Part shown: one piece after another, positions 19,784 to 34,235 of the stretch
Layout of the letters: each line of letters starts with the position of its first letter
Position numbering within the stretch: position 1 is the stretch's first letter
Source: Zhongshania aquatica
Lineage (GTDB): Bacteria > Pseudomonadota > Gammaproteobacteria > Pseudomonadales > Spongiibacteraceae
DNA: 64,000 nucleotides
Assembly (NCBI RefSeq): GCF_027257955.1
Contig: NZ_JANZNQ010000004.1
Span: 186,001-250,000 of the forward strand
Reading direction: 5' to 3'
Notes under the pieces: generated by a model
The model's input: only the letters and a program-made list of their open reading frames with translations
Databases searched by the model: none
What the model was told of the DNA's origin: nothing
Program-made: the position numbers and the translations under genes

Positions 19784-20692
19784 TTAATTATGTAAATATT
19801 TAAGCGCGATAACCGCCGCCGCGGTGCGGTTCTCAACGTTTAGTTTGCGGAAAATTTGTTCTAAATGTTTGTTCGCGGTGCGTGGGCTCATACTCAAAAT
19901 TGTGCCAATTTCACGATTGGTTTTACCATGGGCTATCCACAGTAAGACTTCCGCTTCGCGTTCGGTAATTGGTAATGCTGAGCGTAGTAGATCCACGTCT
20001 GATGGGCGCTCCAGATCAATTAATTGTAGCAAGTATTCGTCGTTACCAGTCTGGCTAATGTAGCGAATCTCCAGCGGCTTTTCTGCGGCTTTTATTAGCA
20101 AGCCTTTTTCTTTGTTAAAGTGGGGTGCGAGTAATTGTCGCAGTTGAGCGGGCAAGTTCTCGTTTAGCCACTTACTGTCTAGTCCTGCCTCTTCGAGTAA
20201 ATGATAAGCCTGTGGTGTTGCCCATAATAGACTGCCATCCGCCGCTGCAGAAAACAAAAATTGTCCCGCACTATCTAATGCAACTCTGGCGCTCAAAGTC
20301 AGGCGAGCGTTTGCTAGATGTGCTTTCATTCTAGCGATGAGTTCGTCGCCTTTTACCGGTTTGGTTATATAGTCTACGCCGCCGGCAGCGAAACCTTTCA
20401 CAATACTTTCTGTGTCGCTAAGGCCCGTCATAAAAATAACCGGAATATGGGCAAGGTCGCGATTTTCTTTAAGTCTACGGCAGGCTTCGAATCCGTCCAT
20501 ATTTGGCATCAGTGCGTCCATCAAAATCACGTCTGGGGTGATATTGGCCGCAATAGTAAGTGCTTGGGCACCTTCGAGAGCGACTAGCACTGTAATGCCA
20601 GCTTGGTCCAAGGTATCGTTCAGCATACTGAGTGTGTCGGGTGAGTCGTCGACAATCAGTACGACGTCTTTTTTGCCGCGGTTTGTATTCAT
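19784..20692 (-). CDS. Response regulator with REC and LuxR/NarL-type DNA-binding domain
   Basis: 302 residues. The receiver domain (9-125) has the acidic pair Asp15-Asp16, phospho-acceptor Asp59 (VILMDALMPNMDG), Thr near 90 (FMTGLSD) and Lys in TKPVKG. A middle segment of about 100 residues looks PAS-like. The C-terminal LuxR helix-turn-helix (about 238-300) has LPITEREAEVLLWIAHGKTNREIG and ANKHLEQIFRKL. The start overlaps the stop of the hybrid kinase gene by four bases (ATGA), so the two are a cognate pair. NarL/FixJ regulators bind 7-2-7 inverted heptamers, and such sites occur upstream of urtA and fmdA in this window, making them probable targets. Confidence 0.93.
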   Translation of the reverse strand: MNTNRGKKDVVLIVDDSPDTLSMLNDTLDQAGITVLVALEGAQALTIAANITPDVILMDALMPNMDGFEACRRLKENRDLAHIPVIFMTGLSDTESIVKGFAAGGVDYITKPVKGDELIARMKAHLANARLTLSARVALDSAGQFLFSAAADGSLLWATPQAYHLLEEAGLDSKWLNENLPAQLRQLLAPHFNKEKGLLIKAAEKPLEIRYISQTGNDEYLLQLIDLERPSDVDLLRSALPITEREAEVLLWIAHGKTNREIGTILSMSPRTANKHLEQIFRKLNVENRTAAAVIALKYLHN

Positions 20693-23600
20693 GACTTGCT
20701 ATCTTCCAATGCGTTGATGAGAGCGGCAAACTGAAATCCAGCGGCAAGCTCTTGTAATGTGTTTAGCGTTGCGGGGTCGGCATTCCCCTTTTCAGATATT
20801 TTTTCTAGACAATGTTTAATGCCTTTGGCGTAACCGATTTTTGCTAATTGGATAAGTTCGCGACGGTTTTCCTCGGTGAGAGGTGAGCCTAAATTAGGAT
20901 GGTTTGGCCTGGCCGAAAGAGACGCGGCTCGGTGTTCTTCTGATTCGTAGCGCCAGACAATGTCAGCATGCTTGCTGAGGTAATCGAGTGCTTGAGAAAG
21001 CCGGATGGGCTTAAACAAATAGGCGTCGTGCGGTGGCACGCCGCTGCTTGCCGGAGTGACTTCGGCGGCATTCGCCGAGATCATAATAATGGTCGCATTG
21101 TGTATTCGCTCACGGATTGCGGCGGCGAGCTCCCAGCCGCTCATCCCGGGCATCGAAATGTCTAATAAGAAAACCTGCGGCTGTGGTTCACAGTAACGTA
21201 ACATATCTAAGCAGGTATTCCCGTCCGGCGCAGTAATGACATTAAAACCAAGTGGGTTGAGCATGTCACTGAGCAGGCTGCGGTGAGTGGGCTCGTCGTC
21301 TACAACGAAGATCGTTCTCTCGTCGCCTTCGTAGCCAATAATTTTGCGTTCAAGCGGCGTCGAGGTGGCGAGCTTGTCTGTGCTGCTTAGCATGAGCGAT
21401 ACTTTCACTTCGCTGCCTACGCCTACTTGGCTGTGTATGGCAATGTCGCCACCCATGATGTCGGTTAGCAAGCGAGTAATAGTGAGACCTAATCCGGTGC
21501 CGGCAACGTGTGGCGAGCCTGGTTTACGGACTCGTTCAAAGGGTTTAAATACCCGCTCGATATCCTCAGCTGCAATGCCGACCCCTGTGTCGTTAATACG
21601 AAACTCTGCGACTTGATTCCGGTAACTTACGGTGAAATTAACTCGCCCTTCGGGCGTGTATTTTATCGCATTTGAAATAAGGTTGATCAGGATTTGGCGC
21701 AGTCGTTTTTCATCGGTTTTAACTGTCTCCGGTAACGGTGTGAGTCGGTCAAAGCTAAAGCCTATGCCCTTAGCCTGCGCTTGAACTTGGAACATACTAA
21801 TAATTTGATCAAGCAAATTGCCGAGATTCACATCAGAGGGAGAAAGCTCGAGTCGGCCCGCTTCTATTCGGGAAATATCTAGCAGTCCCTCTATTAAATC
21901 GGCCAAGTGCTCGCTACTACGTCTAATCACGCGAAGCGCGTCTAGGCGGCTTGCTGGAATGCTGGGGTCTTTTTCGAGGAGTTGTGCGTAGCCCAAGATA
22001 GCATTAAGTGGTGAGCGCAACTCATGGCTAATGCCGGTCAGATAACGGGTTTTGGCTTGGTTGGCAGATTCCGCTATTTCTTTGGCTTGCTGCAATTGCA
22101 TATCGGTTTGTTTGTGTGCAGCGATCTCAGTCATCAGCAACTCTGTTTGCCGTTGCGATTCTTCCTGTGCAACGCGGCGGCTGTCGTGCACCAAGGCAAA
22201 CATCCACGCCAAAATGCCAGATACAATGAGCAGTATGAAGAAGACATTGCTGAGTGCGCTGGCCGCGAGGCTACGCTCCATGCCTTCGTCAATGGTGATT
22301 TGTATATAGACCAGCGCAAGTACACTGGCGATCATAAAGCTGATTAAGGTAAACAATCCGATAAAGTGGCCGGTTCGCGTATTTAGCGAACGAATCCATG
22401 TGTCGGGTAATAAAAAGCTTAATGCGCTGGTTAGTTGCTCCGCCATACGAGAGTTGGTCTTGCACATATCGTGGCAGCGACTATCTAATGAGCAGCATAG
22501 CGAGCATATCGGCCCGGAGTAGGCCGGGCAGTGGCTCATGTCTTCGCTTTCAAATTGATGGTAGCAAATGCAGCAGCGTAAGGATATTTCAGTGCTGGCT
22601 AATACAGGTTCTCGGGCGATATAGAATCTACCCTTGGTTATCCAGCAAATCAGTGGTGCGAAAATGAAAGTGCTGCCAAGTGCGATAAACGAAGCGAGTG
22701 CCTGCGCGGTTTCACCTAGTTGACCGAGGTGGGCGAGAAAGCCAAGCACTGACGCGATCAGCATAGAGCCGACGCCAACAGGATTGATGTCATAGAGGTG
22801 GGCGCGTTTAAATTCCATCGTCGCCGGGCGCAGACCAAGTGGTCTATTGATGACAAGATCTGCGACCAGCGAGCCGACCCACGCTAAGGCAATGATGGAG
22901 TAGGCAGTGAGAATTTCTTCAAGAATTCGATAAATGCCTAACTCCATCAACATTAGCGCTATGGCGACATTGAATACTAACCAGACCACGCGACCGGGAT
23001 GGTTGTGGGTTAGGCGAGAGAAAAAATTAGACCAGGCAATAGAGCCTGCGTAGGCGTTGGTCACATTAATTTTAAGCTGGGATAAAATAACAAAGCTACC
23101 CGTTAAAAATAGCGTTAACTGAGGTGAATTGGTGAGATAGCTAAAGGCGGTTAGGTACATTCGATTGGGGTCGGATGCTTCTGTAAATGGTATGCCGTGG
23201 CTGAGTGCCAAGACGGCTAAAAATGAACCAATGAGAATTTTGACCGAGCCGCTAATTATCCAGCCGGGGCCGGCCGCAATTAATGCCAGCCACCAGCGTT
23301 TATTTGGTTTTTCTTGGTGGGGTAAAAACCGCAGAAAATCGACCTGTTCACCGATTTGTGCGATAAGCGAAAAAATCACTGCGGAGGCTGCACCAAAGGC
23401 AAGGATATTTAAATTTCCATTTCCTTCTGTTGGTGTAAAGGCAACCCAGTTGTCAAAGGCATCGTCAGACTGAAAGACGATGCAGACCAAGGGAAGAAGT
23501 TGCAGTACAACCCACAGCGGTTGTGTCCAAACCTGGAAGCGACTGATCAGGGTAATTCCGTGGGTCACCAATGGAATAACGACAACGGCGCTAATTAAGT

Positions 23601-24057
23601 AGCCATATTTAAGCGGGATATCCATCGTTAACTCTAAGGCTAAAGCCATAATGGCTGCTTCTAGCGCAAAGAAAATAAACGTGAACGACGCGTAAATAAG
23701 TGACGTAATGGTTGAGCCGATATAGCCAAAGCCCGCACCGCGGGTCAGTAAGTCTATGTCTACGCCGCGCCGCGCCGCGTGGTAGCAGATAGGCAGGCCG
23801 GTAAGAAAAATAATAATACCGACGACAATAACCGCGGCGACGGTGTTGCTAAAACCGTAGCTAAGGGTAATTGCGCCGCCAATGGCTTCAAGCGCAAGAA
23901 ATGAAATTGCCCCCAAGGCGGTATTCGACACTCGCCCAACAGACCAGCGACGCGCACCTTTGGCGGTAAATCGAAGTGCGTAGTCTTCCAGCGTTTCGTT
24001 CGCTACCCAGCGATTGTATTTACGGCGAACGCGGAATACCCGTTGTTGGGGGTTCAT
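20689..24057 (-). CDS. Hybrid histidine kinase with NCS1 permease-like sensor domain
   Basis: 1122 residues. Residues about 25-475 form a many-helix region with the look of an NCS1 purine/cytosine permease (LEAIGGAITLSYGFSN, TRGAGFGYIGS, NVTNAYAGSIAWSNFFSR). A cysteine cluster follows at 495-532 with nine Cys, then two helices near 565-630. The kinase core has phospho-acceptor His678 (ISHELRSPLNAILGYAQ), the N and G boxes of HATPase (NLISNAIKYTPEG, NDTGVGIA, GTGLGLTI), and a receiver domain with Asp966 (LLDISMPGMSG). About 60 helical residues end the protein. It is divergent from an amide/urea-type ABC transporter and coupled to a LuxR-type regulator. I infer that the transporter-like domain senses an amide, urea or related small nitrogen compound. 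Confidence 0.93.
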   Translation of the reverse strand: MNPQQRVFRVRRKYNRWVANETLEDYALRFTAKGARRWSVGRVSNTALGAISFLALEAIGGAITLSYGFSNTVAAVIVVGIIIFLTGLPICYHAARRGVDIDLLTRGAGFGYIGSTITSLIYASFTFIFFALEAAIMALALELTMDIPLKYGYLISAVVVIPLVTHGITLISRFQVWTQPLWVVLQLLPLVCIVFQSDDAFDNWVAFTPTEGNGNLNILAFGAASAVIFSLIAQIGEQVDFLRFLPHQEKPNKRWWLALIAAGPGWIISGSVKILIGSFLAVLALSHGIPFTEASDPNRMYLTAFSYLTNSPQLTLFLTGSFVILSQLKINVTNAYAGSIAWSNFFSRLTHNHPGRVVWLVFNVAIALMLMELGIYRILEEILTAYSIIALAWVGSLVADLVINRPLGLRPATMEFKRAHLYDINPVGVGSMLIASVLGFLAHLGQLGETAQALASFIALGSTFIFAPLICWITKGRFYIAREPVLASTEISLRCCICYHQFESEDMSHCPAYSGPICSLCCSLDSRCHDMCKTNSRMAEQLTSALSFLLPDTWIRSLNTRTGHFIGLFTLISFMIASVLALVYIQITIDEGMERSLAASALSNVFFILLIVSGILAWMFALVHDSRRVAQEESQRQTELLMTEIAAHKQTDMQLQQAKEIAESANQAKTRYLTGISHELRSPLNAILGYAQLLEKDPSIPASRLDALRVIRRSSEHLADLIEGLLDISRIEAGRLELSPSDVNLGNLLDQIISMFQVQAQAKGIGFSFDRLTPLPETVKTDEKRLRQILINLISNAIKYTPEGRVNFTVSYRNQVAEFRINDTGVGIAAEDIERVFKPFERVRKPGSPHVAGTGLGLTITRLLTDIMGGDIAIHSQVGVGSEVKVSLMLSSTDKLATSTPLERKIIGYEGDERTIFVVDDEPTHRSLLSDMLNPLGFNVITAPDGNTCLDMLRYCEPQPQVFLLDISMPGMSGWELAAAIRERIHNATIIMISANAAEVTPASSGVPPHDAYLFKPIRLSQALDYLSKHADIVWRYESEEHRAASLSARPNHPNLGSPLTEENRRELIQLAKIGYAKGIKHCLEKISEKGNADPATLNTLQELAAGFQFAALINALEDSKS

Positions 24058-24407
24058 GACTGTAAGTTCATAACAATAAATTCATAGCTAGGCATTCATC
24101 CGGTCAACGTAATTTTAGCAATCGTACATTGGCTAATAAATGCAGGTGAGTGGCAGCGAATACAAAGTAGACGGCAGCTATGTGGAAGTAAGCAGGAACA
24201 GTGCCACTATAGATAATGCCCTCGTTCAAGGTCTTTCGGTCTGCTGGAATCTATTTTATCAGTGTCTAACGCTATCGCGCGGGAATTTTCGGCTATATAC
24301 GTCATTTGACTTATTAGGGGGGAGCATTCACCTCATGGTGGGGAAAGGAACTTCTGCGGACACTGTTACCTGTCGAATCAAGTAACCGTAGCGTAGGAGA
24401 AGTAACG
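24058..24407. other. Divergent control region between hybrid kinase and urtA, 350 bases
   Basis: No gene seen. It carries the 7-2-7 repeat at 24298-24313 and an AGGAG ribosome site at 24394-24398 ahead of the urtA ATG. No confident -10/-35 pair was found for either direction, consistent with an activator-dependent promoter. Confidence 0.6.
24298..24313. promoter_or_regulatory. 7-2-7 inverted repeat, probable response-regulator operator (urtA side)
   Basis: TACGTCA, TT, TGACTTA: two inverted heptamers with a two-base spacer, 15 of 16 bases the same as the perfect site upstream of fmdA (32357-32372). The centre is about 103 bases before the urtA start. NarL/FixJ-family regulators bind this geometry with TAC-beginning heptamers. 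Confidence 0.6.
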
Positions 24408-25655
24408 ATGAGTGACAAATCCGATAGTCGGCGTTTATGGGGCCGCCGTAAGGTGGTTCGAGCTATAAGCGCTCTGCCGCTAGGGATCATCCTAGCATCG
24501 CAGTTGAGCTTGGCAGCGCCAGCCACCACCACTGGGCAAGCGGTAACAGATGATACCGTGACCGTGGGTATTTTACATTCACTGACTGGCACCATGGCAA
24601 TCAGTGAGACCGGTGCGCAAGAGGCTGAGAAATTAGCGATCAAGCAAATCAATGAAATGGGCGGTATTTTAGGTCGTCAAATCAAAGTCATTCAGGAAGA
24701 TGGCGCCAGTGATTGGCCGACCTTTGCTGAAAAAAGCCGCAAATTGTTGGTAAATGACAAGGTTGCTGCGGTCTTTGGTTGCTGGACTTCAGCATCACGG
24801 AAGGCGGCATTACCCGTGTTTGAAAAAGAAAATGGTCTGCTTTACTACCCGACTTTTTATGAGGGGTTGGAGCAGTCTAAGAACGTTATTTACACCGGTC
24901 AGGAAGCAACCCAGCAGATTCTAGATGGTTTGAACTGGGTAGCTAAAGAGAAAGGGGCTAAAACCTTTTACTTGATTGGATCTGACTATATCTGGCCACG
25001 TACGTCGATGAAAATTGCCCGTAAACACATAGAGAACGTGTTAGGTGGCAAGGTTGTCGGTGAAGAATACAAGCCGCTGGGCGATACCCAGTTTGGTTCG
25101 GTCATCAACAAAATCCGCCTGAAAAAGCCTGATGTTATTTACGCCGCAGTTGTGGGTGGTAGTAACGTTGCATGGTTTAAACAGTTGAAAGCTGCGGGTA
25201 TCACATCCAAGAAACAAACTCTGCTGACTATCTCGGTAACGGAGGATGAAGTATTGGGCATTGGTGGTGAAAACCTCGAGGGCTTCTACTCGATCATGAA
25301 GTACTTCCAGAGTCAGGATAACCCCAACAACGTGGCCTTCGTAAAAGCGTTTAAAGAAATGTGGGGCGACGACAGTGTAATTGGTGATGTTACTCAGGCT
25401 GCTTATCTAGGACCTTGGTTGTGGAAAGCGGCTGTAGAAAAAGCTGGCACCTTCGATGTTGACGCGGTTGTGGCGGCATCTGAAGAAGGCGACATCGAGC
25501 TGACTACGGCACCTGAAGGCTATGTGAAGCTTCATCCTAACCACCACTTGTGGAGTAAAGCGCGAGTAGGTATGTGGAAGAAAGATGGTCAAGCTGAAGT
25601 GGTATATACCTCTGAGCTTATCGAGCCAGATCCATTCCCAGAAGGTTACCAATAA
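24408..25655 (+). CDS. urtA: Urea/short-chain amide ABC transporter substrate-binding protein
   Basis: 415 residues. A signal peptide (about 1-36, ending LAA) has a basic start RRLWGRRK suggestive of Tat or long Sec export. The mature part is a type-I periplasmic binding fold with UrtA-typical motifs: VGILHSLTGTMAISE, FGCWTSASRKAALPVFE, LLYYPTFYEGLEQS and LIGSDYIWPRTS. UrtA, FmdD and the Pseudomonas amide sensor AmiC are relatives, so sequence alone does not separate urea from formamide/acetamide. The presence of amiE and fmdA and the absence of urease in the window favour amides. First gene of the urtABCDE-amiE-amiB run. Confidence 0.92.
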   Translation: MSDKSDSRRLWGRRKVVRAISALPLGIILASQLSLAAPATTTGQAVTDDTVTVGILHSLTGTMAISETGAQEAEKLAIKQINEMGGILGRQIKVIQEDGASDWPTFAEKSRKLLVNDKVAAVFGCWTSASRKAALPVFEKENGLLYYPTFYEGLEQSKNVIYTGQEATQQILDGLNWVAKEKGAKTFYLIGSDYIWPRTSMKIARKHIENVLGGKVVGEEYKPLGDTQFGSVINKIRLKKPDVIYAAVVGGSNVAWFKQLKAAGITSKKQTLLTISVTEDEVLGIGGENLEGFYSIMKYFQSQDNPNNVAFVKAFKEMWGDDSVIGDVTQAAYLGPWLWKAAVEKAGTFDVDAVVAASEEGDIELTTAPEGYVKLHPNHHLWSKARVGMWKKDGQAEVVYTSELIEPDPFPEGYQ

Positions 25656-25690
25656 GCCCGAGGGCTTGTACTGAAAATATCAGAAATACC

Positions 25691-25710
25691 GGCGAACAGG
25701 GATGTTCGCC
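25691..25710 (+). repeat. Intercistronic stem-loop between urtA and urtB
   Basis: GGCGAACA and TGTTCGCC form a perfect eight-pair stem with loop GGGA, 36 bases after the urtA stop. No T-run follows. Such hairpins after binding-protein genes commonly stabilise the upstream message and lower expression of the membrane components. Confidence 0.6.
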
Positions 25711-25774
25711 AATCCTTTCCAAGTAATTAAATAGTGCAAAGAATGTTGACGTATATATTAGCGGAGGCTAAGTA

Positions 25775-26698
25775 ATGGGCGGTTATAGCTACGATGAGTT
25801 AGGCGCGATATTCGCAATGCAGGGCTTCGCCGGCATCAGCTTGTTTAGCGTACTGTTGCTGATGGCCTTGGGGCTCGCAATTATTTTTGGACAGATGGGT
25901 GTTATAAATATGGCTCACGGCGAATTCATGGCCGCGGGTGCGTACACAACCTATTTAATCTCTTCTTTAACAGAAACCTATATACCCGGCTTTATGCCGT
26001 ACTATTTTGTATTCTCGATAGTGGCTGCATTTCTGGTTGCGGGAGTACTGGGCTATCTCGCCGAGTTTATTTTGATAAGGCATCTCTACAAACGTCCTTT
26101 AGATACCTTACTGGCAACTTGGGGTTTGAGCTTAATCATGCAGCAGTCTTTCCGCTCCATTTTTGGCGCGCGTGAAGTAAGCCCAACTCTGCCAGACTGG
26201 CTGATGGGATCAGTGCAACCCACAGACATGATCGATATTCCCATCAACGGCATGTTCGTGCTCGGTTTGACTGTTTTCACGACCTTGGCGGTGTTCTATT
26301 TAATGTTCAAATCTAGCTGGGGTCTGCGCGTACGCGCCACCACGCAAAATCGGGTTATGAGTGGCGCAGTGGGTATCAATACCAAGAAAATTGACCGTTA
26401 TACCTTCGCCCTAGGCTGCGGTATTGCGGGCATGGCTGGCGCGGCGTTTACGACTATTGCGTCAACCGGGCCAACTACTGGAACACTGTATATCGTAGAT
26501 ACGTTCATGGTTGTGGTCTTCGGTGGTGCTGCCAGTCTGTTCGGCACAATTGCCTCGGCGTTTTCAATTGCCCAGGCGCAATCAATCCTCGAGTTTTTTA
26601 TCAGCGGATCAATGGCCAAAGTCTTTACCTTGCTCACCTTGGTAATAATTTTGATGTTCAAACCAGAAGGCCTGTTTGCCAGCAAGGTTCGTCGTTAA
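25775..26698 (+). CDS. urtB: Urea/amide ABC transporter permease UrtB, short form
   Basis: 307 residues with about eight membrane helices. It is a LivH-type branched-chain permease with ALGLAIIFGQMGVINMAHGEFMAAGAYTTYL at about 30-60, LLATWGLSLIMQQSFRSIFGA and a C-terminal LFKPEGLFASKVRR-type end. UrtB proteins of many proteobacteria carry an extra N-terminal exported domain of about 200 residues. This one lacks it and is the length of plain LivH/FmdE. It pairs with UrtC to form the channel. A 13-pair hairpin spans its stop codon. Confidence 0.9.
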   Translation: MGGYSYDELGAIFAMQGFAGISLFSVLLLMALGLAIIFGQMGVINMAHGEFMAAGAYTTYLISSLTETYIPGFMPYYFVFSIVAAFLVAGVLGYLAEFILIRHLYKRPLDTLLATWGLSLIMQQSFRSIFGAREVSPTLPDWLMGSVQPTDMIDIPINGMFVLGLTVFTTLAVFYLMFKSSWGLRVRATTQNRVMSGAVGINTKKIDRYTFALGCGIAGMAGAAFTTIASTGPTTGTLYIVDTFMVVVFGGAASLFGTIASAFSIAQAQSILEFFISGSMAKVFTLLTLVIILMFKPEGLFASKVRR

Positions 26699-26711
26699 GA
26701 CGAGCCTTGCT
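26681..26711 (+). repeat. Stem-loop over the urtB stop codon
   Basis: AGCAAGGTTCGTC at 26681-26693 pairs with GACGAGCCTTGCT at 26699-26711 (12 Watson-Crick pairs and one T-G). The five-base loop contains the TAA stop. No T-run follows, so it is more likely an RNA stability or processing element than a terminator. Confidence 0.55.
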
Positions 26712-26749
26712 CACTAGTAACAAGTCTGGTTGTAAATTATTGGGAGTTA

Positions 26750-27937
26750 ATGATGAGCTTTGTTTACGAAAAATTATTTGGCGATAAAAAGGGGATGATA
26801 GGGTTTTGCCTACTCGCAATACTCATTCTTGTTGTCTTCCCCCTTATGCTTGATTCCTTTCGCTTAAACCTTGTTGGTAAATACCTGACCTATGCGTTTG
26901 CGGCGGTTAGCTTGGTATTGCTCTGGGGATACGGTGGCACCTTAAGTTTGGGGCAGGGCATATTTTTCGGGATTGGCGGTTATGCCATGGCAATGTTTTT
27001 AAAATTAGAAGCATCGTCACCGGAAAACACGGCGATCCAATCTACTCCTGGTATTCCCGACTTTATGGACTGGAACCAAATAACGGAACTACCGTTTTTC
27101 TGGATGCCCTTCCACAGTTTCACCTTTACCTTAATAGCTATTTTAGTCGTGCCAACATTCTTCGCATATATCATCGGTGCGGCTATGTTTAAACGACGCG
27201 TTGGTGGTGTGTACTTCGCGATCATCACTCAGGTTATCTCCGTAATTTTAACGGTACTGATTGTTGGTCAGCAGGGTTTAACCGGCGGCATCAACGGTAT
27301 TACCGATCTACGTACACTCAATGGTTGGGATATCACCTCTGACAGCGCTAAAAATCTGTTTTACTTTATTAACTGTTTCTTACTTTTAGCAGTCATCATC
27401 GCCTCGCGTTTTGTGCTTACCAGCAAGTTTGGTCGTCTACTTTTAGCGATGCGAGACAAAGAGGATCGAGTTCGATTCTCAGGCTATGACGTCGCTAACT
27501 TTAAAATATTTGTGTTCTGCTTTGCGGCGTTGATTTCTGCCGTTGGTGGCGCGATGTTTACCCTGCAAGTTGGCTTTATGTCACCGTCCTTTGTCGGCAT
27601 CGTACCGTCCATAGAAATGGTCATCTTTGCTGCAGTAGGTGGGCGGATGTCACTGATTGGTGCGGTATACGGCACCTTACTTATTAATTTTGGTAAGACG
27701 GCATTCTCAGAATCTTTCCCTGAGTTGTGGCTGTTCTTAATGGGCGGTCTGTTCATTGCGGTTGTAATGTTCTTTCCAAACGGCTTGGCAGGTTTGTGGG
27801 AGGACTACGGTCACCACATTACTAAGCACTTCCGTTTTCTAAACCGCTTTTACGACAAGCTTGTGCCGGCGTCCAGCAAGGAAGTTAATGCCAGCAACTC
27901 TGTTGATAGTGCCGAGCTAGAGGGGTCAAAATCATGA
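26750..27937 (+). CDS. urtC: Urea/amide ABC transporter permease UrtC
   Basis: 395 residues with about ten hydrophobic segments, LivM-type. UrtC-like phrases are YLTYAFAAVSLVLLWGYGGTLSLGQGIFFGIGGYAMAM, GGVYFAIITQVISVILT, LTGGINGITDL and LLAMRDKEDRVRFSGYDVANFK, with GGRMSLIGAVYGTLLINF near the end. Tandem ATG codons at 26750 and 26753 share a GGGAG site. The second is better spaced. The stop overlaps the urtD start by four bases (ATGA). Confidence 0.92.
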   Translation: MMSFVYEKLFGDKKGMIGFCLLAILILVVFPLMLDSFRLNLVGKYLTYAFAAVSLVLLWGYGGTLSLGQGIFFGIGGYAMAMFLKLEASSPENTAIQSTPGIPDFMDWNQITELPFFWMPFHSFTFTLIAILVVPTFFAYIIGAAMFKRRVGGVYFAIITQVISVILTVLIVGQQGLTGGINGITDLRTLNGWDITSDSAKNLFYFINCFLLLAVIIASRFVLTSKFGRLLLAMRDKEDRVRFSGYDVANFKIFVFCFAALISAVGGAMFTLQVGFMSPSFVGIVPSIEMVIFAAVGGRMSLIGAVYGTLLINFGKTAFSESFPELWLFLMGGLFIAVVMFFPNGLAGLWEDYGHHITKHFRFLNRFYDKLVPASSKEVNASNSVDSAELEGSKS

Positions 27938-28686
27938 ACATGTCCACGAATACCGATTTCACCCTCGCAATAGAAGATCTAACGGTATCGTTTGATGGTT
28001 TTAAAGCCGTAGATTCCTTGAACTTCTATCTGGATAGAAACGAACTGCATGTGGTTATTGGGCCGAATGGTGCAGGTAAAACCACCGTACTTGACTTGAT
28101 CTGCGGCAAAACAAAATCAACCTCGGGTAGCATAAAGTTTTTGAATAAAGAATTAACTAACCTGTCCGAGCACGAGATTGTTCGCGCAGGGGTAGGACGA
28201 AAATTCCAAACACCGTCCATCTACGAAAATCTGAGCGTGATGGAGAACTTAGAAGTTTCTTATCCCCGTGGTCGCGGTGTATTTGGTTCATTGCTGTTCA
28301 AGCACGATGCAGAAGTGCATAGCAAAATTATCGAAGTGGCTCAGCAGATTATGCTGGAATCCTTTTTGGATACCGAGGCAGGTCTGCTAAGTCACGGCCA
28401 AAAACAGTGGCTAGAAATTGGCATGCTGCTCATTCAAGACCCTCAGCTCTTGATGCTAGATGAGCCTGTTGCCGGTATGAGCGTAAAAGAGCGAGAACAA
28501 ACCGCAGAGTTGTTGAACAAGATTAGTAAAGGTCGGTCAGTGCTGGTTATTGAGCACGACATGGAATTCGTCGCTCGAATTGCTCATAAAGTAACGGTGC
28601 TGCACCAAGGTAAAATTCTTGCCGCTGGCGAAATGGAAGAAGTGCAGAAAGACCCTAAAGTTATCGAAGTGTATTTGGGTCACTAG
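27934..28686 (+). CDS. urtD: Urea/amide ABC transporter ATPase UrtD
   Basis: 250 residues, LivG-type ATPase. Walker A is GPNGAGKTTVLDLI, the Q-loop region GRKFQTPSIYENLSVMENLE, the signature variant LSHGQKQWLEIGMLL (diagnostic of UrtD), and Walker B LLMLDEPVAGMS with VLVIEHDMEFV. It hydrolyses ATP on the cytoplasmic face together with UrtE. Coupled to urtC by overlap. Confidence 0.94.
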   Translation: MNMSTNTDFTLAIEDLTVSFDGFKAVDSLNFYLDRNELHVVIGPNGAGKTTVLDLICGKTKSTSGSIKFLNKELTNLSEHEIVRAGVGRKFQTPSIYENLSVMENLEVSYPRGRGVFGSLLFKHDAEVHSKIIEVAQQIMLESFLDTEAGLLSHGQKQWLEIGMLLIQDPQLLMLDEPVAGMSVKEREQTAELLNKISKGRSVLVIEHDMEFVARIAHKVTVLHQGKILAAGEMEEVQKDPKVIEVYLGH

Positions 28687-28740
28687 TGAAATTCTGAAAT
28701 CGTTTGCGTTACAGCGGCTACGGTGAGGTGAAATAATTTT

Positions 28741-29430
28741 ATGTTGAATGTCTCTAATTTAAAAGTGTGCTACGGCCAAAGTGAAGTTATTCATGGCCTA
28801 GATTTTAGCGTCCCTAAAAATGAAACTCTTGCGATAATGGGGCGCAATGGTATGGGTAAAACCACCTTGTTTAAATCGCTTATTGGCATATTGCCTAGTT
28901 CAGAGGGCAGTATTTCTATCGACGGTGTCGATGTGACGAATAAGGAAAGCTTTCAGCGGGTGGCAAGTGGCATCGCCTATGTTCCACAGGGCCGTATGAT
29001 TTTTCCATCCTTAACCGTTCAAGAAAACATTGAGACCGGTATGGAAGTGTCTAAACTTAAAAAAATTCCCGATGATATTTACGCCCTGTTTCCTGTGCTT
29101 GCGGAGATGCGTAAACGTAAAGGTGGCAATTTATCTGGTGGTCAGCAGCAACAGCTTGCCATCGCTAGAGCATTAGTCACAAATCCGAAAGTACTGTTGC
29201 TCGACGAGCCTACCGAAGGCATTCAGCCCTCGATCATTAAGGATATTGCCAATGTCCTGAATGAAATTAAAAAATTACGCGACATTACAATTATTGTGTC
29301 GGAGCAGGTACTGAGTTTTACCATGACAGTTGCAGACCGCATTATCGTTATCGACAAGGGTAATTTTATTCACGAGAACCTGCGTGAAGAAGTTGATACC
29401 AACAAGATTAAAGCTTATTTGTCAGTGTAA
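28741..29430 (+). CDS. urtE: Urea/amide ABC transporter ATPase UrtE
   Basis: 229 residues, LivF-type. Walker A is GRNGMGKTTLFKSLIG, with IAYVPQGRMIFPSLTVQENIETG, the signature LSGGQQQQLAIARALVTNP and Walker B LLLDEPTEGIQPSII, which is the UrtE/LivF subtype. It begins 54 bases after urtD with GAGG upstream. With UrtABCD it completes a full importer. Confidence 0.94.
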   Translation: MLNVSNLKVCYGQSEVIHGLDFSVPKNETLAIMGRNGMGKTTLFKSLIGILPSSEGSISIDGVDVTNKESFQRVASGIAYVPQGRMIFPSLTVQENIETGMEVSKLKKIPDDIYALFPVLAEMRKRKGGNLSGGQQQQLAIARALVTNPKVLLLDEPTEGIQPSIIKDIANVLNEIKKLRDITIIVSEQVLSFTMTVADRIIVIDKGNFIHENLREEVDTNKIKAYLSV

Positions 29431-29479
29431 TAGATTGCAATGAGAGCGTTGAGGAATTGATAAAAATTCGGAGGTAGAA

Positions 29480-30520
29480 ATGAGACACGGTGATATTTCC
29501 AGTAGCCCAGACACCGTTGGTGTGGCGGTGGTTAATTATAAAATGCCGCGCTTACATACCCGTGAGCAGGTTTTGGATAATGCTCGTAATATCGCCGAGA
29601 TGATTAAGGGCATGAAAATCGGCTTACCCGGTATGGATCTGGTGGTGTTTCCCGAATACAGCACCATGGGCATCATGTACGACAACGAAGAAATGATGGC
29701 CACCGCAGCGACGGTGCCCGGCGATGAAACCGCCATTTTCAGTGCGGCATGCCGTGAAGCCAAAACCTGGGGAATATTCTCCCTAACCGGTGAACGTCAC
29801 GAAGACCATCCCCATAAAGCACCGTATAACACCCTTGTACTCATCAATGACCAAGGCGACATTGTTCAGAAATACCGTAAATGTATTCCCTGGTGTCCGA
29901 TCGAAGGTTGGTATCCCGGCGACAGAACCTACGTCAGCGAAGGTCCTAAGGGCATGAAGATCAGCCTGATTATTTGTGACGATGGCAACTATCCAGAAAT
30001 TTGGCGCGATTGTGCAATGAAGGGCGCAGAATTAATTGTTCGCTGCCAAGGTTATATGTATCCCGCAAAAGAACAGCAGATAATGATGGCAAAAAGCATG
30101 GCGTGGGCCAATAACTGCTATGTTGCTGTTGCCAACGCCAGCGGCTTTGACGGTGTGTATTCCTACTTCGGCCACTCCGCAATTATCGGTTTTGATGGCC
30201 GTACCCTTGGTGAGTGTGGCGAAGAGGATATGGGTGTTCAGTACGCCCAGTTATCCGTGAGTCAAATTCGAGACGCGCGGGCCAATGACCAGTCCCAAAA
30301 CCATTTATTTAAATTACTGCATCGCGGTTATACCGGTGTATTTAACTCCGGTGATGGCGACAAAGGCGTGGCGGATTGCCCCTTTGATTTCTATCGCAGC
30401 TGGGTCTTAGACGCAGAGAAAACCCGCGAAGACGTTGAGAAAATAACCCGTTCTACTATTGGCGTAGCCGATTGTCCGGTTGGCGAGCTGCCCTACGAAG
30501 GTAAAGAGCGGGAGGCCTGA
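29480..30520 (+). CDS. amiE: Aliphatic amidase AmiE
   Basis: 346 residues, exactly the length of Pseudomonas aeruginosa AmiE, which I recall as nearly collinear over the full length (MRHGDISSS start, [33 protein letters not shown]). The catalytic residues Glu59, Lys134 and Cys166 are all in place. It hydrolyses short aliphatic amides such as acetamide and propionamide to the acid and ammonia in the cytoplasm. A good ribosome site (GGAGG) is at 29470-29474, 49 bases after urtE, so the enzyme is probably made together with its importer. AmiC, AmiR and AmiS of the Pseudomonas operon are absent. Confidence 0.97.
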
Positions 30521-30547
30521 TTTTCGGGTTTATAGAAGCAGAGGTAT

Positions 30548-31570
30548 ATGCCCTACATCAATGATCGTTTAACTGCTGAGCGGGATGTGGCTGATCGGCA
30601 GCGCTACACGCAAACGCTTAGTAGGCAGTCTCGATTCCTGTTTGAGCCAGCGCAGGTAATGGCATTGCTGTGTAAGCGGATTATCGGCCAAAACGGCGTA
30701 TTAGATGCCATTGACGATATGCTGCACGTGGTGAAAGCTGATATTGGCAATAAGCAGCGCCCGCTTTCGGTGATGATGTTTCTTGGCCCCACCGGGGTAG
30801 GTAAAACGGAAACCGCGAGGCTGATTGCGGAAGCGATTCAAGGCAGCTGCGATGCCTTAGTTCGTATCGATATGAATACCCTTGCACAAGAGCATTACAG
30901 TGCCGCGCTTACTGGCGCGCCACCGGGTTATGTGGGCAGCAAAGAAGGGCATAGTTTACTCAGTGTTGATGCCATCGCTGGCAGTTTCAGTGCGCCAAGT
31001 GTTGTGTTGTTTGACGAAATTGAAAAGGCGAGCGATGAGGTAATCCGAGCGCTTATGAATGTGCTCGATACCGGTAAGTTAACATTAGCCTCGGGTGTAA
31101 AAGAATTAGATTTCCGCAATAGCCTGATCTTTATGAGCAGTAATATTGGCGCGAGTGAAGTAGAGAACTCCCGTTCTAAGCGATACCGGTTCTGGCGGCG
31201 TCATCATCAGGAAAAACAGTTAATTGACCTTGCTCTGCGTAAGAAATTTGATCCTGAATTCATTAATCGCATCGACGCTGTACTCTCCTTTGGCCATCTG
31301 GAGCGTGCGCACTTATCGCATGTGCTAGATATAGAATTAGCGAAGTTTCAGCAGCGCCTCGGCAAGCGCCAAGTTGAACTTCAGCTGGATGCTGAGTGCC
31401 GAAGCTACCTAGTGGAAAAATACGACGAACGTTACGGCGCTAGGCATATCGCAAGACGCTTGCGCCGTGATTTAGAACCCGCCGTTGCTCGTGCCATGTT
31501 GGCAAACCCTGAGCATGGCGAGTTTATCGCTTTTCTGCAAAACGAAAGGATTTCGGTTGAGTCGATATAG
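30548..31570 (+). CDS. amiB: AmiB-like AAA+ ATPase (ClpB/ClpA-related, single ring)
   Basis: 340 residues. It is a single AAA_2 module like the second ring of ClpA/ClpB. Walker A is FLGPTGVGKTETARLIAEA, there is a pore-like GYVGSKEG, Walker B is VVLFDEIEKASDEV, sensor-1 ending SSNIGASE, and the arginine-finger region FDPEFINRIDAVLSF, followed by a Clp D2-small domain with YGARHIARRLRRDLE. It lies 27 bases after amiE, as amiB does in P. aeruginosa. AmiB there is an ATPase of uncertain role in amidase production or assembly. The name is by position and type, not proven orthology. Confidence 0.8.
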   Translation: MPYINDRLTAERDVADRQRYTQTLSRQSRFLFEPAQVMALLCKRIIGQNGVLDAIDDMLHVVKADIGNKQRPLSVMMFLGPTGVGKTETARLIAEAIQGSCDALVRIDMNTLAQEHYSAALTGAPPGYVGSKEGHSLLSVDAIAGSFSAPSVVLFDEIEKASDEVIRALMNVLDTGKLTLASGVKELDFRNSLIFMSSNIGASEVENSRSKRYRFWRRHHQEKQLIDLALRKKFDPEFINRIDAVLSFGHLERAHLSHVLDIELAKFQQRLGKRQVELQLDAECRSYLVEKYDERYGARHIARRLRRDLEPAVARAMLANPEHGEFIAFLQNERISVESI

Positions 31571-31590
31571 TAATCAGCAGCTGGTGATAT

Positions 31591-32106
31591 TTATTTTTGT
31601 TTGGGAAAAATAAGCTTTTCGGTATCAAAACCCCGCGCCTTGGACATGCTAATAAAATTTTCAATAACCTCAGGTTTTACTGTCGGGGTTCTTGATAATA
31701 GCCAGAGATACTCCAGATCTGGTCCCGATATAAATGCATATTGATAGTTTTGATGATCGAGTTCAAAAATCACATACGAGCCGTAAAATGGCCCAAAGAA
31801 TGAGACTTTTAAATAGCCATCGGTTTCTGAATTGACAAAATACGCCTTGCCCTCAGCTTCTTTCCATTCCTTGTCTGCCTCAGAATATCCGCGATTGATT
31901 ACCGACACACCGCCATCTTTTTTCATGCTGTATTCGGCAGTTACTTGGCTGAGCCCTTTTTCAAAAGAGTGATCCAGCCTAGCAATCTCATGCCATTTTC
32001 CAAGGTACTTGTTCAGTTCAAAATTGGATACCGGACTTACTTTTTCCGGCATGCCTAAACATGCGCTAAGCAATAGCGCGCTCAAAACCAAGACTAACTT
32101 TCTCAT
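31591..32106 (-). CDS. blc: Bacterial lipocalin Blc, lipoprotein
   Basis: 171 residues from the ATG at 32106. The longer frame to 32172 adds residues before the obvious signal peptide. The lipobox LSAC (Cys about 17) predicts an outer-membrane lipoprotein. The lipocalin start block LNKYLGKWHEIARLDHSFEKG has the GxW signature. DLEYLWLLSRTPTV and a tail resembling Blc (SKARGFDTEKLIF) follow. The family binds lysophospholipids or fatty acids. It is convergent with amiB and divergent from fmdA, and no link to amide metabolism is evident. Confidence 0.92.
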   Translation of the reverse strand: MRKLVLVLSALLLSACLGMPEKVSPVSNFELNKYLGKWHEIARLDHSFEKGLSQVTAEYSMKKDGGVSVINRGYSEADKEWKEAEGKAYFVNSETDGYLKVSFFGPFYGSYVIFELDHQNYQYAFISGPDLEYLWLLSRTPTVKPEVIENFISMSKARGFDTEKLIFPKQK

Positions 32107-32531
32107 ATGAAGCTCCCAGTGACTGCGTTTATCCAGGCAGTGTTGTTGGTATGTGGGAATGATATACGCCAAATTCTTATATCAAGACGACCACTGCCAA
32201 AAGTGGGTAAGGCCAGAATAGGGCATTTGGCTTTAGGAGCACAGCTTCGTCTTGGCTCTAGAAATATCATGTGCTGTTCTGCGGCGCTTATATTCCAATA
32301 GCGCGTAGTAAATACCAGCCGGAAACAATGGCCCTAAAGCGGTACGGAAACATGGCTACGTCATTTGACGTAGCCATAAGGGCAATTAACTAATACCCGT
32401 TTTGACGGTGATTACCGATAGTAAGGTCATGGCGACGGTGTTGTTTAGGCGTATCAGGCCCCTGGCAAGATATAAAAATAAACAGCTCGTGGTGTTATCT
32501 CGAATTTCTATGACTGATCCGGAGAAGAACG
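32107..32531. other. Divergent control region between blc and fmdA, 425 bases
   Basis: No gene accepted. It holds a perfect 26-base palindrome at 32352-32377, which contains the 7-2-7 site, and a GGAG ribosome site at 32520-32523 before fmdA. A short plus-strand frame at 32107-32301 has no gene-like features. Confidence 0.6.
32352..32377. promoter_or_regulatory. Perfect palindrome with 7-2-7 core, probable operator (fmdA side)
   Basis: ATGGCTACGTCA at 32352-32363 and TGACGTAGCCAT at 32366-32377 flank TT. The inner 16 bases (TACGTCA, TT, TGACGTA) match the site upstream of urtA at all but one position. No T-run follows on either strand, so a terminator is unlikely. The centre is about 167 bases before the fmdA start. 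Confidence 0.7.
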
Positions 32532-33761
32532 ATGGCAGAAACAATCATCAAAGTTGATTTGAGTAAATCGGCATACGACAACGATATGATACACAACCGC
32601 TGGCATCCAGACATACCAATGGTACAGATGGTTAAACCCGGTGATGATTTTAAAATTGAGTGTGTCGATTGGACCGGAGGTCAAATTAACAACAACGACT
32701 CAGCAGATGATGTGCGTGATGTTGATCTCAGTAAAGTTCATTTTCTATCTGGCCCAGTAGGTGTAGAGGGTGCAGAGCCCGGTGATTTGTTGGTGGTCGA
32801 TATTTTGGATATCGGCACTTTTGAAGAAAGTCAGTGGGGTTTCAACGGTTTCTTTTCTAAGCAAAATGGTGGTGGATTTTTAACAGAGCATTTCCCCGAA
32901 GCGCAGAAATCGATCTGGGACTTTAATGGAATGTTCACCAAGTCTCGCCACGTTCCTAATGTTGAGTTCGCAGGTTTGATCCATCCCGGTTTGATTGGCT
33001 GTCTGCCATCAAGAGAGATGCTGGATGAATGGAACACGCGTGAGAAAGCGCTGGTCGATACTGATCCCCATCGTATTCCTGAATTAGCGACTTTGCCTTA
33101 TGCCGATACCGCGCACATGGGACGTATGACCGGCGACGCAGCTAAAGCGGCCGCGGCTGAAGGCGCACGTACAGTGCCGCCGCGCGAGCACGGTGGTAAC
33201 TGCGACATTAAAGATTTGTCGCGGGGCGCTAAAGTTTATTTCCCAGTTTATGTTAAAGATGCCGGGCTCAGTGTGGGTGACCTTCACTTTAGTCAGGGCG
33301 ACGGTGAAATTACATTCTGCGGCGCTATCGAAATGGCGGGTTGGATTCACCTCCGTGTGAATTTGATTAAAGATGGTATGAAAAAATACGGCATTAAAAA
33401 CCCCATTTTCAAACCAAGCCCGATCACGCCTAAGTATGACGATTACCTTATATTTGAAGGTATTTCTGTTGACGAGGGTGGCAAACAGCATTACTTAGAC
33501 GTGCATATTGCTTATCGCCAAGCCTGTTTGAATGCCATCGAATATATGACTAAGTTTGGCTATAGCCGAGCCCAGGCCTACACCATTCTCGGGGTCGCAC
33601 CGGTACAGGGACATATAAGTGGGGTGGTCGATATACCCAATGCCTGCGCTACGCTGTGGTTGCCGACTGATATCTTTGACTTTGATATGCAGCCCAATGC
33701 CGACGGTCCGACCAAGGCGGTTGATGGCAGTGTTGATGTGCCTTTGTCGCCGGATTTGTAA
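32532..33761 (+). CDS. fmdA: Formamidase / acetamidase-formamidase family FmdA
   Basis: 409 residues, matching the roughly 407-residue FmdA of Methylophilus. Family blocks are IKVDLSKSAYDNDMIHNRWHPDIP at the start, FHFLSGPVGVEGAEPGDLL-like sequence near 75-95, GLIHPGLIGCLPSREMLDEWN, HGGNCDIKDLSRGAKVYFPV and FSQGDGEITFCGAIEMAG. The conserved His/Asp/Glu residues of the metal-dependent acetamidase/formamidase fold are in these blocks. It converts formamide to formate and ammonia. It is preceded by the same operator motif as urtA and followed by fmdB. Confidence 0.95.
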   Translation: MAETIIKVDLSKSAYDNDMIHNRWHPDIPMVQMVKPGDDFKIECVDWTGGQINNNDSADDVRDVDLSKVHFLSGPVGVEGAEPGDLLVVDILDIGTFEESQWGFNGFFSKQNGGGFLTEHFPEAQKSIWDFNGMFTKSRHVPNVEFAGLIHPGLIGCLPSREMLDEWNTREKALVDTDPHRIPELATLPYADTAHMGRMTGDAAKAAAAEGARTVPPREHGGNCDIKDLSRGAKVYFPVYVKDAGLSVGDLHFSQGDGEITFCGAIEMAGWIHLRVNLIKDGMKKYGIKNPIFKPSPITPKYDDYLIFEGISVDEGGKQHYLDVHIAYRQACLNAIEYMTKFGYSRAQAYTILGVAPVQGHISGVVDIPNACATLWLPTDIFDFDMQPNADGPTKAVDGSVDVPLSPDL

Positions 33762-33848: not shown

Positions 33849-34235
33849 ATGCCAGTATACGACTACAAATGCAATGAACACGGTTTGTTCCATGATCTTG
33901 CGAGCATGGAGCAAGCTGCTCATCCATGCGCTTGTCCGCAGTGCGGAAAACTCAGTGCGCGGGTCATTATGATTCCACCAGAGGTGTTGGCCATGTCGCC
34001 GGCGAGACGACAGGCAATGGCAAAAAACGAAAAGGCGATACATCAACCGATTTTTTCTACAGTGGATTCCAGGGAGGAGTCAGCGCAGCGGCGCGCTCAT
34101 GCAGTTGCGAAAAAGGGCTGCGGTTGCAGTGGCGACGCACATCCTGATCGCAGCAGTTTGCGTCAGAAGGCGATTTACATGGCTGACGGTAGTAAGGTTT
34201 TCCCCTCTCAACGACCCTGGATGATTAGTCACTGA
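33849..34235 (+). CDS. fmdB: FmdB-type zinc ribbon protein
   Basis: 128 residues. The N-terminal 45 residues form the FmdB zinc ribbon: MPVYDYKCNEHGLF with the pair CPQC about 25 residues later. In the first knuckle the usual second Cys is replaced by His (CNEH). A charged middle and a small C-terminal Cys cluster KKGCGCSGD follow. FmdB lies next to FmdA in Methylophilus and was proposed to regulate the formamidase genes. That role is not proven. The gene begins 87 bases after fmdA with GGAGG upstream. Confidence 0.88.
   Translation: MPVYDYKCNEHGLFHDLASMEQAAHPCACPQCGKLSARVIMIPPEVLAMSPARRQAMAKNEKAIHQPIFSTVDSREESAQRRAHAVAKKGCGCSGDAHPDRSSLRQKAIYMADGSKVFPSQRPWMISH

Follow-up and report, generated by a model that had tools for sequence, protein, structure and literature searches.

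Comparative sequence evidence for a probable urea/amide two-component regulon with a shared operator in Zhongshania aquatica

Introduction

Both marine and soil bacteria rely on urea and small amides as important sources of nitrogen, and beyond a few models little is known of what turns on the uptake and hydrolysis of these compounds. Among described systems, the nearest parallel to the locus treated here is CrbS/CrbR (MxtR/ErdR), which serves acetate in Pseudomonas and Vibrio and likewise combines a transporter-fused hybrid kinase with a LuxR-type regulator and a short inverted repeat, conserved across Gammaproteobacteria, before uptake and utilisation genes (PMC5715377). NarL offers a precedent for the shape of the operator, two inverted heptamers starting with TAC, separated by two bases (7-2-7) and bound by a GerE-type dimer (PMC4549865), and the DevR/DosR boxes of mycobacteria one for close pairs of strong and weak boxes, bound cooperatively, with the proximal box over the -35 position (PMC3029386). 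Aliphatic amidase operons are also controlled by AmiC/AmiR (PMC13209695); in the fmdCABDEF cluster of Methylophilus methylotrophus, FmdB is described as a putative positive regulator (PMC10781810); and a second urtABCDE cluster with a LuxR-type two-component pair is known, from annotation only, in Ectopseudomonas guguanensis (PMC13296017). Here we analyse a stretch of 64,000 nucleotides from Zhongshania aquatica (contig NZ_JANZNQ010000004.1, positions 186,001 to 250,000; hereafter the window), in which a hybrid kinase and a response regulator lie beside a urtABCDE-amiE-amiB operon, and in which that operon and a nearby fmdA-fmdB operon are each preceded by a copy of the same 7-2-7 site, called box A below. 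A search of the open PMC literature returned no paper describing the function of this urea/amide kinase/regulator/operator system.

The comparisons below argue, with a probability of roughly 0.82, that both the urt-ami and the fmd operons answer to the two-component system encoded at 19784-24057, whose regulator is predicted to bind these sites. The best reading of the locus is an uncharacterised urea/amide two-component system that would work like CrbS/R. The features on which the argument turns are the following:

24298..24313, plus strand: box A of the urtA promoter, TACGTCA-TT-TGACTTA (7-2-7), kept in 10 of 10 family genomes with urtA
32357..32372, plus strand: box A of the fmdA promoter, TACGTCA-TT-TGACGTA (7-2-7), kept in 10 of 10 family genomes with fmdA
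19784..20692, minus strand: LuxR/NarL-type response regulator of 302 amino acids, with a receiver (11-122), a middle region and a GerE helix-turn-helix (242-296), from Pfam and orthologs
20689..24057, minus strand: hybrid sensor kinase of 1122 amino acids, with an NCS1-transporter-like membrane domain, a cysteine-rich segment, HisKA, HATPase_c and a receiver, from Pfam and fold comparison

The operator and its conservation

Both sites lie, letter for letter, where a first-pass annotation made from the sequence alone had placed them, and the thirteen bases that it found identical between the two control regions (TACGTCATTTGAC) are indeed common to both. Each consists of inverted heptamers starting with TAC around a two-base spacer. 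A scan of the window allowing up to three mismatches gave four matches, which are the two sites read on both strands, against 0.65 expected, and none of 100 shuffled windows reached four. In the 4.49 Mb genome, scanned to two mismatches with the reversed pattern as control, zero-mismatch copies occur only at these two places, which bears out the earlier remark that no third copy was seen; two extra matches at two mismatches (contigs C10 and C38) are background, since the reversed control gives five at the same looseness. The fmdA site lies inside a 12-2-12 inverted repeat (32352-32377), as had been claimed. The repeat equals its reverse complement at 24 of 26 bases, the exceptions being the central TT, which cannot be its own complement, so that the description as a perfect 26-base palindrome was slightly generous. 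The arms beyond the 16-mer show no conservation in nine other aligned genomes, and the 26-base palindrome was for this reason rejected as a functional unit.

The motif scan of own and related genomes that had been proposed as a check was run on 21 genomes of the family with the pattern TACGTCAWWTRACKTA, allowing one mismatch. Ten of the 21 have a regulator ortholog (identity of 76% or more), and exactly these ten also have urtA and fmdA; the site stands before urtA and before fmdA in all of them (20 of 20 promoters), where alignment displays the 16-mer as a conserved island amid diverged upstream DNA. Loss of the site before urt and fmd genes in relatives that keep the kinase and regulator was looked for here, and every one of those promoters has it. 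In two further genomes, G003 and G020, the regulator is about 54% identical, and both urtA and fmdA are missing. Ten additional places matched within one mismatch, divided evenly, five and five, between the ten regulon genomes and the remaining eleven.

Beyond the family, 41 divergent, close kinase/urtA pairs of alpha- and gammaproteobacteria (the window included) were assembled from 80 named loci found through the regulator and from the family loci. The best site in each gap had 0, 1, 2, 3, 4 or 5 mismatches in 6, 19, 6, 4, 4 and 2 gaps, respectively; 31 of the 41 thus hold a site within two mismatches, where shuffles give 0.03 per set at two and none lower. Sorted by record title, eighteen of the gaps are alphaproteobacterial, 13 of them within two mismatches. 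In most gaps the best site lies nearer urtA, an observation that bears on autoregulation of the kinase by a separate site, with one best site scored per gap. Twenty-six genomes were picked by hand, mostly since their locus already showed a site; 22 of them contain the exact pattern TRCGTCANNTGACGTA, with 28 places in all (reversed control, one genome). All 23 loci retrieved from them sit at a urtA-type gene or fmdA, and in Alcanivorax, a Pseudomonas and others a second site again precedes fmdA. Fetched loci of Marinomonas, Oceanospirillum and several Sphingomonas-type bacteria yielded no site. Taken together, the family, the other families and the alphaproteobacteria strongly support, at the level of comparative genomics, the proposal that one predicted regulon links urt/ami with fmdAB.

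Variants of the site ending in TGCCCCA or similar were seen in sphingomonad, acetic-acid-bacterium-type and other alphaproteobacterial loci (L050 at 6277, L054 at 9407, L069 at 13492, L087 at 1266, and L089), where the variant precedes ureD in L087 and a gene for a TonB-dependent receptor in L069.

The position of fmdA provides a natural control. Fourteen of 18 genomes searched for FmdA were positive; where fmdA follows amiB, a site within two mismatches precedes it in nine of ten (L171 lacks one), and where it lies within about 100 bases after urtE (L168, L172, L173) no own site was found in any of the three, as expected if fmdA is there read from the urtA promoter. A Cellvibrio locus (L161), with fmdA about 720 bases after urtE, has the half-degenerate TGGGGTGAATGACGTA.

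Order-wide association of site and regulator

Across 390 genomes of the window's order, chosen neither by site nor by regulator, the regulator (E up to 1e-70) was found in 109 and the exact site in 86, with reversed-control matches in 13. Both occur in 72 genomes, the regulator only in 37, the site only in 14 and neither in 267 (Fisher p 2.5e-36, uncorrected for shared descent). Among the site-only genomes, five (G078 and the Pseudomonas-like G110, G215, G362 and G395) do encode the pair next to urtA, in each case with a diverged regulator; the regulators of G110 and G362 lack the middle region and keep the helix-turn-helix. Of the other nine, G246 has fmdAB behind the exact site, and eight gave no urt, ami, fmd, ure or kinase query match in the fetched stretch. 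The exact site is present in 38 of the 57 genomes with both fmdA and the regulator, and the 19 without it include four of the window's genus that have near sites.

Two side observations belong here. The Pseudomonas-like regulators at L233 5086-6117 and L234 4716-5657 (minus strand) are without the middle region, the site upstream of urtA being kept; and in L230 (G330) two copies of TACGTCAAATGACGTA stand 234 bases apart at about 9553, with no close regulator and no queried gene nearby.

That these sites are the target of a different NarL/FixJ-type regulator of the cell, the neighbouring pair being merely co-inherited, is improbable. This explanation draws on the 7-2-7 shape, which is common to many response regulators (a first look in this genome with the regulator as query gave 64 candidates), and on one genome, G246, in which the site precedes fmdAB and no regulator was found. 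Yet the exact site tracks this regulator family across the 390 genomes and, in genomes with the pair, precedes urease or urtA2 genes, in some cases kilobases away from it. The recognition helix is also almost invariant among site-bearing regulators, the short Pseudomonas form included, a weak point because the same helix is kept in relatives without a site in the locus.

Breadth of the regulon

The site before urtA2 or ureD genes in other genomes, identified by scanning, is new. Of 30 order-wide site loci retrieved, 24 have it directly before type-1 urtA (9), fmdA (4), urtA2 (7) or ureD (4); three of the other six have urtA2 about 1.3 kb away, and three have none, these being in genomes without the regulator. 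It precedes ureD in L068 and L092, and in L030 a urtA2 operon that is followed by ureD; L021 and L046 also run into ureD. Judged by the predicted products, the common denominator of the site-bearing loci is urea or a small amide. The name "amide regulon" given in the first-pass annotation fits the amide and formamide genes; its restriction to amides does not stand, urea transporter and urease operons elsewhere also carrying the site.

Antitermination by AmiC/AmiR is a Pseudomonas system. No AmiR-type antiterminator was found at the locus, and the genome's only ANTAR match lies on contig C74, not on C52; AmiC/AmiR-type control was rejected on this ground, in agreement with the earlier view that control here differs from such antitermination, there being no ANTAR-type AmiR beside amiE. 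The sole ANTAR protein (L259, 1480-2049) adjoins a gene resembling an NrtA/NasS-type binding protein, and for that reason is probably NasT.

Promoter anatomy

When gammaproteobacterial promoters are anchored on box A, a second conserved block appears. Read as 7-2-7 (for example TGGGGTA-TT-TGTCGAA), it begins 5-7 bases beyond box A, and the centres of the two lie 21-22 bp apart. The left half of this candidate box B recurs in some species as the distal half of box A (TGGGGTA-AA-TGACGTA in L065 and L243). Thirty-nine promoters (10 urtA and 10 fmdA promoters of the family and 19 other urtA promoters) were scored with a box-A profile taken in each case from other promoter groups, and offset 5-7 ranked first in 27, against about 2.6 expected, including 14 of the 19 other urtA and all 10 family fmdA promoters. 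In 35 of the 39, against 1.7 expected, a hexamer of the form [CGT]ANANT begins 44-46 bases beyond box A; taken as the -10 element, it would place box A near -65 and box B near -43. In the window these elements are:

24320..24335, plus strand: GGGAGCA-TT-CACCTCA, candidate box B in the urtA promoter, its centre 22 bp from that of box A
24359..24364, plus strand: -10-like hexamer GACACT of the urtA promoter, at the conserved position
32378..32393, plus strand: AAGGGCA-AT-TAACTAA, candidate box B in the fmdA promoter, its centre 21 bp from that of box A
32417..32422, plus strand: -10-like hexamer GATAGT of the fmdA promoter

The weaker second 7-2-7 box, 21-22 bp downstream of the first and ahead of a -10-like hexamer, is a new element that we infer from these alignments. 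In several alphaproteobacterial promoters, TTGCNN or a like sequence stands two bases after box A and some 17 bases ahead of a candidate -10, which suggests, as a weaker impression, that they use one box at about -45. A sigma-54 promoter was rejected, as no strict match occurred in 39 kinase/urtA gaps scanned.

This geometry also bears on the sign of control. The regulator might repress, with box B over the -35 position blocking polymerase until a signal releases it, and a box B ending about 23 bases before the -10-like hexamer would indeed let a bound dimer cover the -35 region. We give this alternative little credence: the gammaproteobacterial promoters combine poor -10-like hexamers with the lack of any good conserved -35, which fits dependence on an activator, and the same geometry is reported for activators, DevR with its proximal box over -35 (PMC3029386) and CrbR, whose motif spans -52 to -36 relative to the acs start (PMC5715377). 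That the two copies reflect chance or a recent duplication without function, as their being the only two in the genome and their 13 shared bases might suggest, has a negligible probability, contradicted as it is by independent retention at both promoters in ten genomes with diverged surroundings, by the same site before other genes in alphaproteobacteria, by the 31 of 41 gaps, by the alignments and by the 390-genome association.

The sensor kinase

Residues 1-630 of the kinase were aligned with 27 relatives, modelled with AlphaFold (mean predicted local distance difference test score 81.6, predicted template-modelling score 0.82) and compared with PDB folds. The five best folds were entries of Mhp1 (2jln, E 1.9e-9) or CodB, both NCS1 transporters, CodB with a template-modelling score of 0.77 by target length; an SSS sialic acid symporter ranked sixth, and other LeuT-fold transporters came after the NCS1 entries. 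A sensor domain with an NCS1-transporter-like fold (Mhp1/CodB), as the model predicts, is new. The same residues had no Pfam match even at E 10 save one meaningless one, and none to an NCS1 family, and their profile retrieved no NCS1 chain among PDB sequences. Classification by sensor domain as an SLC5/STAC kinase was rejected on the lack of an SLC5/SSS Pfam match and on the NCS1 best folds; no Pfam match to a STAC domain was found between membrane part and kinase in a general Pfam scan, which included no STAC-specific comparison. Between the NCS1-like and kinase parts, eight cysteines (495, 498, 510, 518, 521, 522, 528 and 532) are invariant in the 28 kinases, and segment 495-532 is possibly a metal or iron-sulphur site.

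Gene layout and products

Kinase and regulator, whose genes overlap by 4 bases on the minus strand, diverge from urtABCDE-amiE-amiB on the plus strand, which is followed by a lipocalin-like gene (minus strand) and then by fmdA-fmdB. The regulator scores above the Pfam cut-offs for Response_reg (97.3 bits) and GerE (62.1 bits), and with its receiver and C-terminal helix-turn-helix belongs, as first proposed, to the NarL/FixJ (LuxR-type) family; that of Zhongshania antarctica (L095) is 88% identical. The other genes, named from family-library matches except where stated, are:

24408..25655, plus strand: urtA, substrate-binding protein (type 1)
25775..26698, plus strand: urtB, permease
26750..27937, plus strand: urtC, permease
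27934..28686, plus strand: urtD, ATPase
28741..29430, plus strand: urtE, ATPase, named from its place and its ATP-binding cassette ATPase translation, with no library match behind the name
29480..30520, plus strand: amiE, aliphatic amidase (PRK13286)
30548..31570, plus strand: amiB, ClpB-like AAA+ protein
31591-32172, minus strand: lipocalin-like gene between amiB and fmdA, named from reading its translation
32532..33761, plus strand: fmdA, formamidase
33849..34235, plus strand: fmdB, FmdB-family zinc-ribbon protein

The lipocalin-like gene has the same place in G008 (L102). The FmdB of the window matches the FmdB-family zinc ribbon and an RPWMISH-domain model, although the literature calls FmdB a putative regulator (PMC10781810).

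Proposed mechanism and its weighing

In the mechanism we propose, the NCS1-like membrane domain of the kinase would detect urea, short-chain amides or the state of their transport, and the kinase would phosphorylate the LuxR/NarL-type regulator. Each promoter would then carry two regulator dimers in tandem. One would occupy the strong, palindromic box A, at about -65, and the other the weaker box B, which at about -43 adjoins or overlaps the -35 position; with 21-22 bp between the boxes, both would lie on the same face of the DNA. The promoter-proximal dimer would help sigma-70 RNA polymerase at a poor -10, and the genes for amide import (urtABCDE), for amide breakdown (amiE, amiB) and for hydrolysis of formamide (fmdAB) would be induced together as a result. 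A wider proposal, on which we would not wager at even odds, is that an undescribed class of NCS1-fold kinases senses urea and short-chain amides directly, and that one conserved tandem operator governs urea and amide transport and hydrolysis across Alpha- and Gammaproteobacteria, and that from lineage to lineage the regulon exchanges urease for amidase/formamidase modules or the reverse.

Several results weigh against control of both operons by this pair or against parts of the mechanism. One-mismatch matches alone mean little, the reversed pattern giving 23 at up to one mismatch in the 21 family genomes; it is therefore position, not single loose matches, that counts as evidence. Related promoters are not independent, and 37 regulator-positive genomes of the order have no exact site. 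Setting aside the four of the window's genus, 15 genomes have fmdA and the regulator and no exact site; a site within two mismatches occurs in only five of them, the proximal half being mainly kept and the distal half degenerate in seven. L240, L242 and the additionally fetched L254 keep kinase/regulator and urtA and show no convincing site in the gap, and the site of L246 is doubtful. In G246 no regulator was found even at E up to 1e-25, with fmdAB and the exact site present. As for box B, offset 5-7 ranks first in only 3 of the 10 family urtA promoters, and the candidate in the window's own urtA promoter ranks second in the box-A-profile scan. The sensed molecule, finally, is a guess from regulon and fold.

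The G246 locus itself (L225) has the site at 2888 and fmdA at 2989, with no urt, ami or regulator found; its fmdAB may be a remnant or be controlled by another regulator.

Significance and comparison with known systems

What emerges is a well-defined regulon that lends itself to testing and for which operator, promoter layout, regulator and sensor type are all predicted. With its DNA signature, unlabelled transporters of the urt type could be given a substrate in many genomes, and a class of kinases fused to an NCS1-like fold is indicated alongside the known SLC5-fused kinases.

Among the systems named at the outset, CrbS/CrbR is the one to which the layout of the locus corresponds in principle, including an inverted repeat a little upstream of -35. 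CrbS carries an SLC5/SSS domain with STAC and acts on acetate genes (PMC5715377), whereas the kinase of the window has a predicted NCS1-like domain and a cysteine-rich segment; the site sequence differs from that of CrbR, two tandem boxes are predicted in place of its motif, and the targets are urea and amide genes. From NarL the system differs in signal and targets and in its heptamer, TACGTCA as against the NarL type (TACCCCT-AA-AGGGGTA in an engineered narG site), with dimer binding here a prediction (PMC4549865). DevR/DosR resembles it in the strong and weak boxes, cooperativity being here a prediction, and is unrelated in kinase, signal and box sequence (PMC3029386). The available part of the fmdCABDEF account names no two-component system, unlike the locus of the window (PMC10781810), and AmiC/AmiR employs an RNA-binding ANTAR antiterminator, where the window has none at the locus and a putative DNA-binding response regulator instead (PMC13209695).

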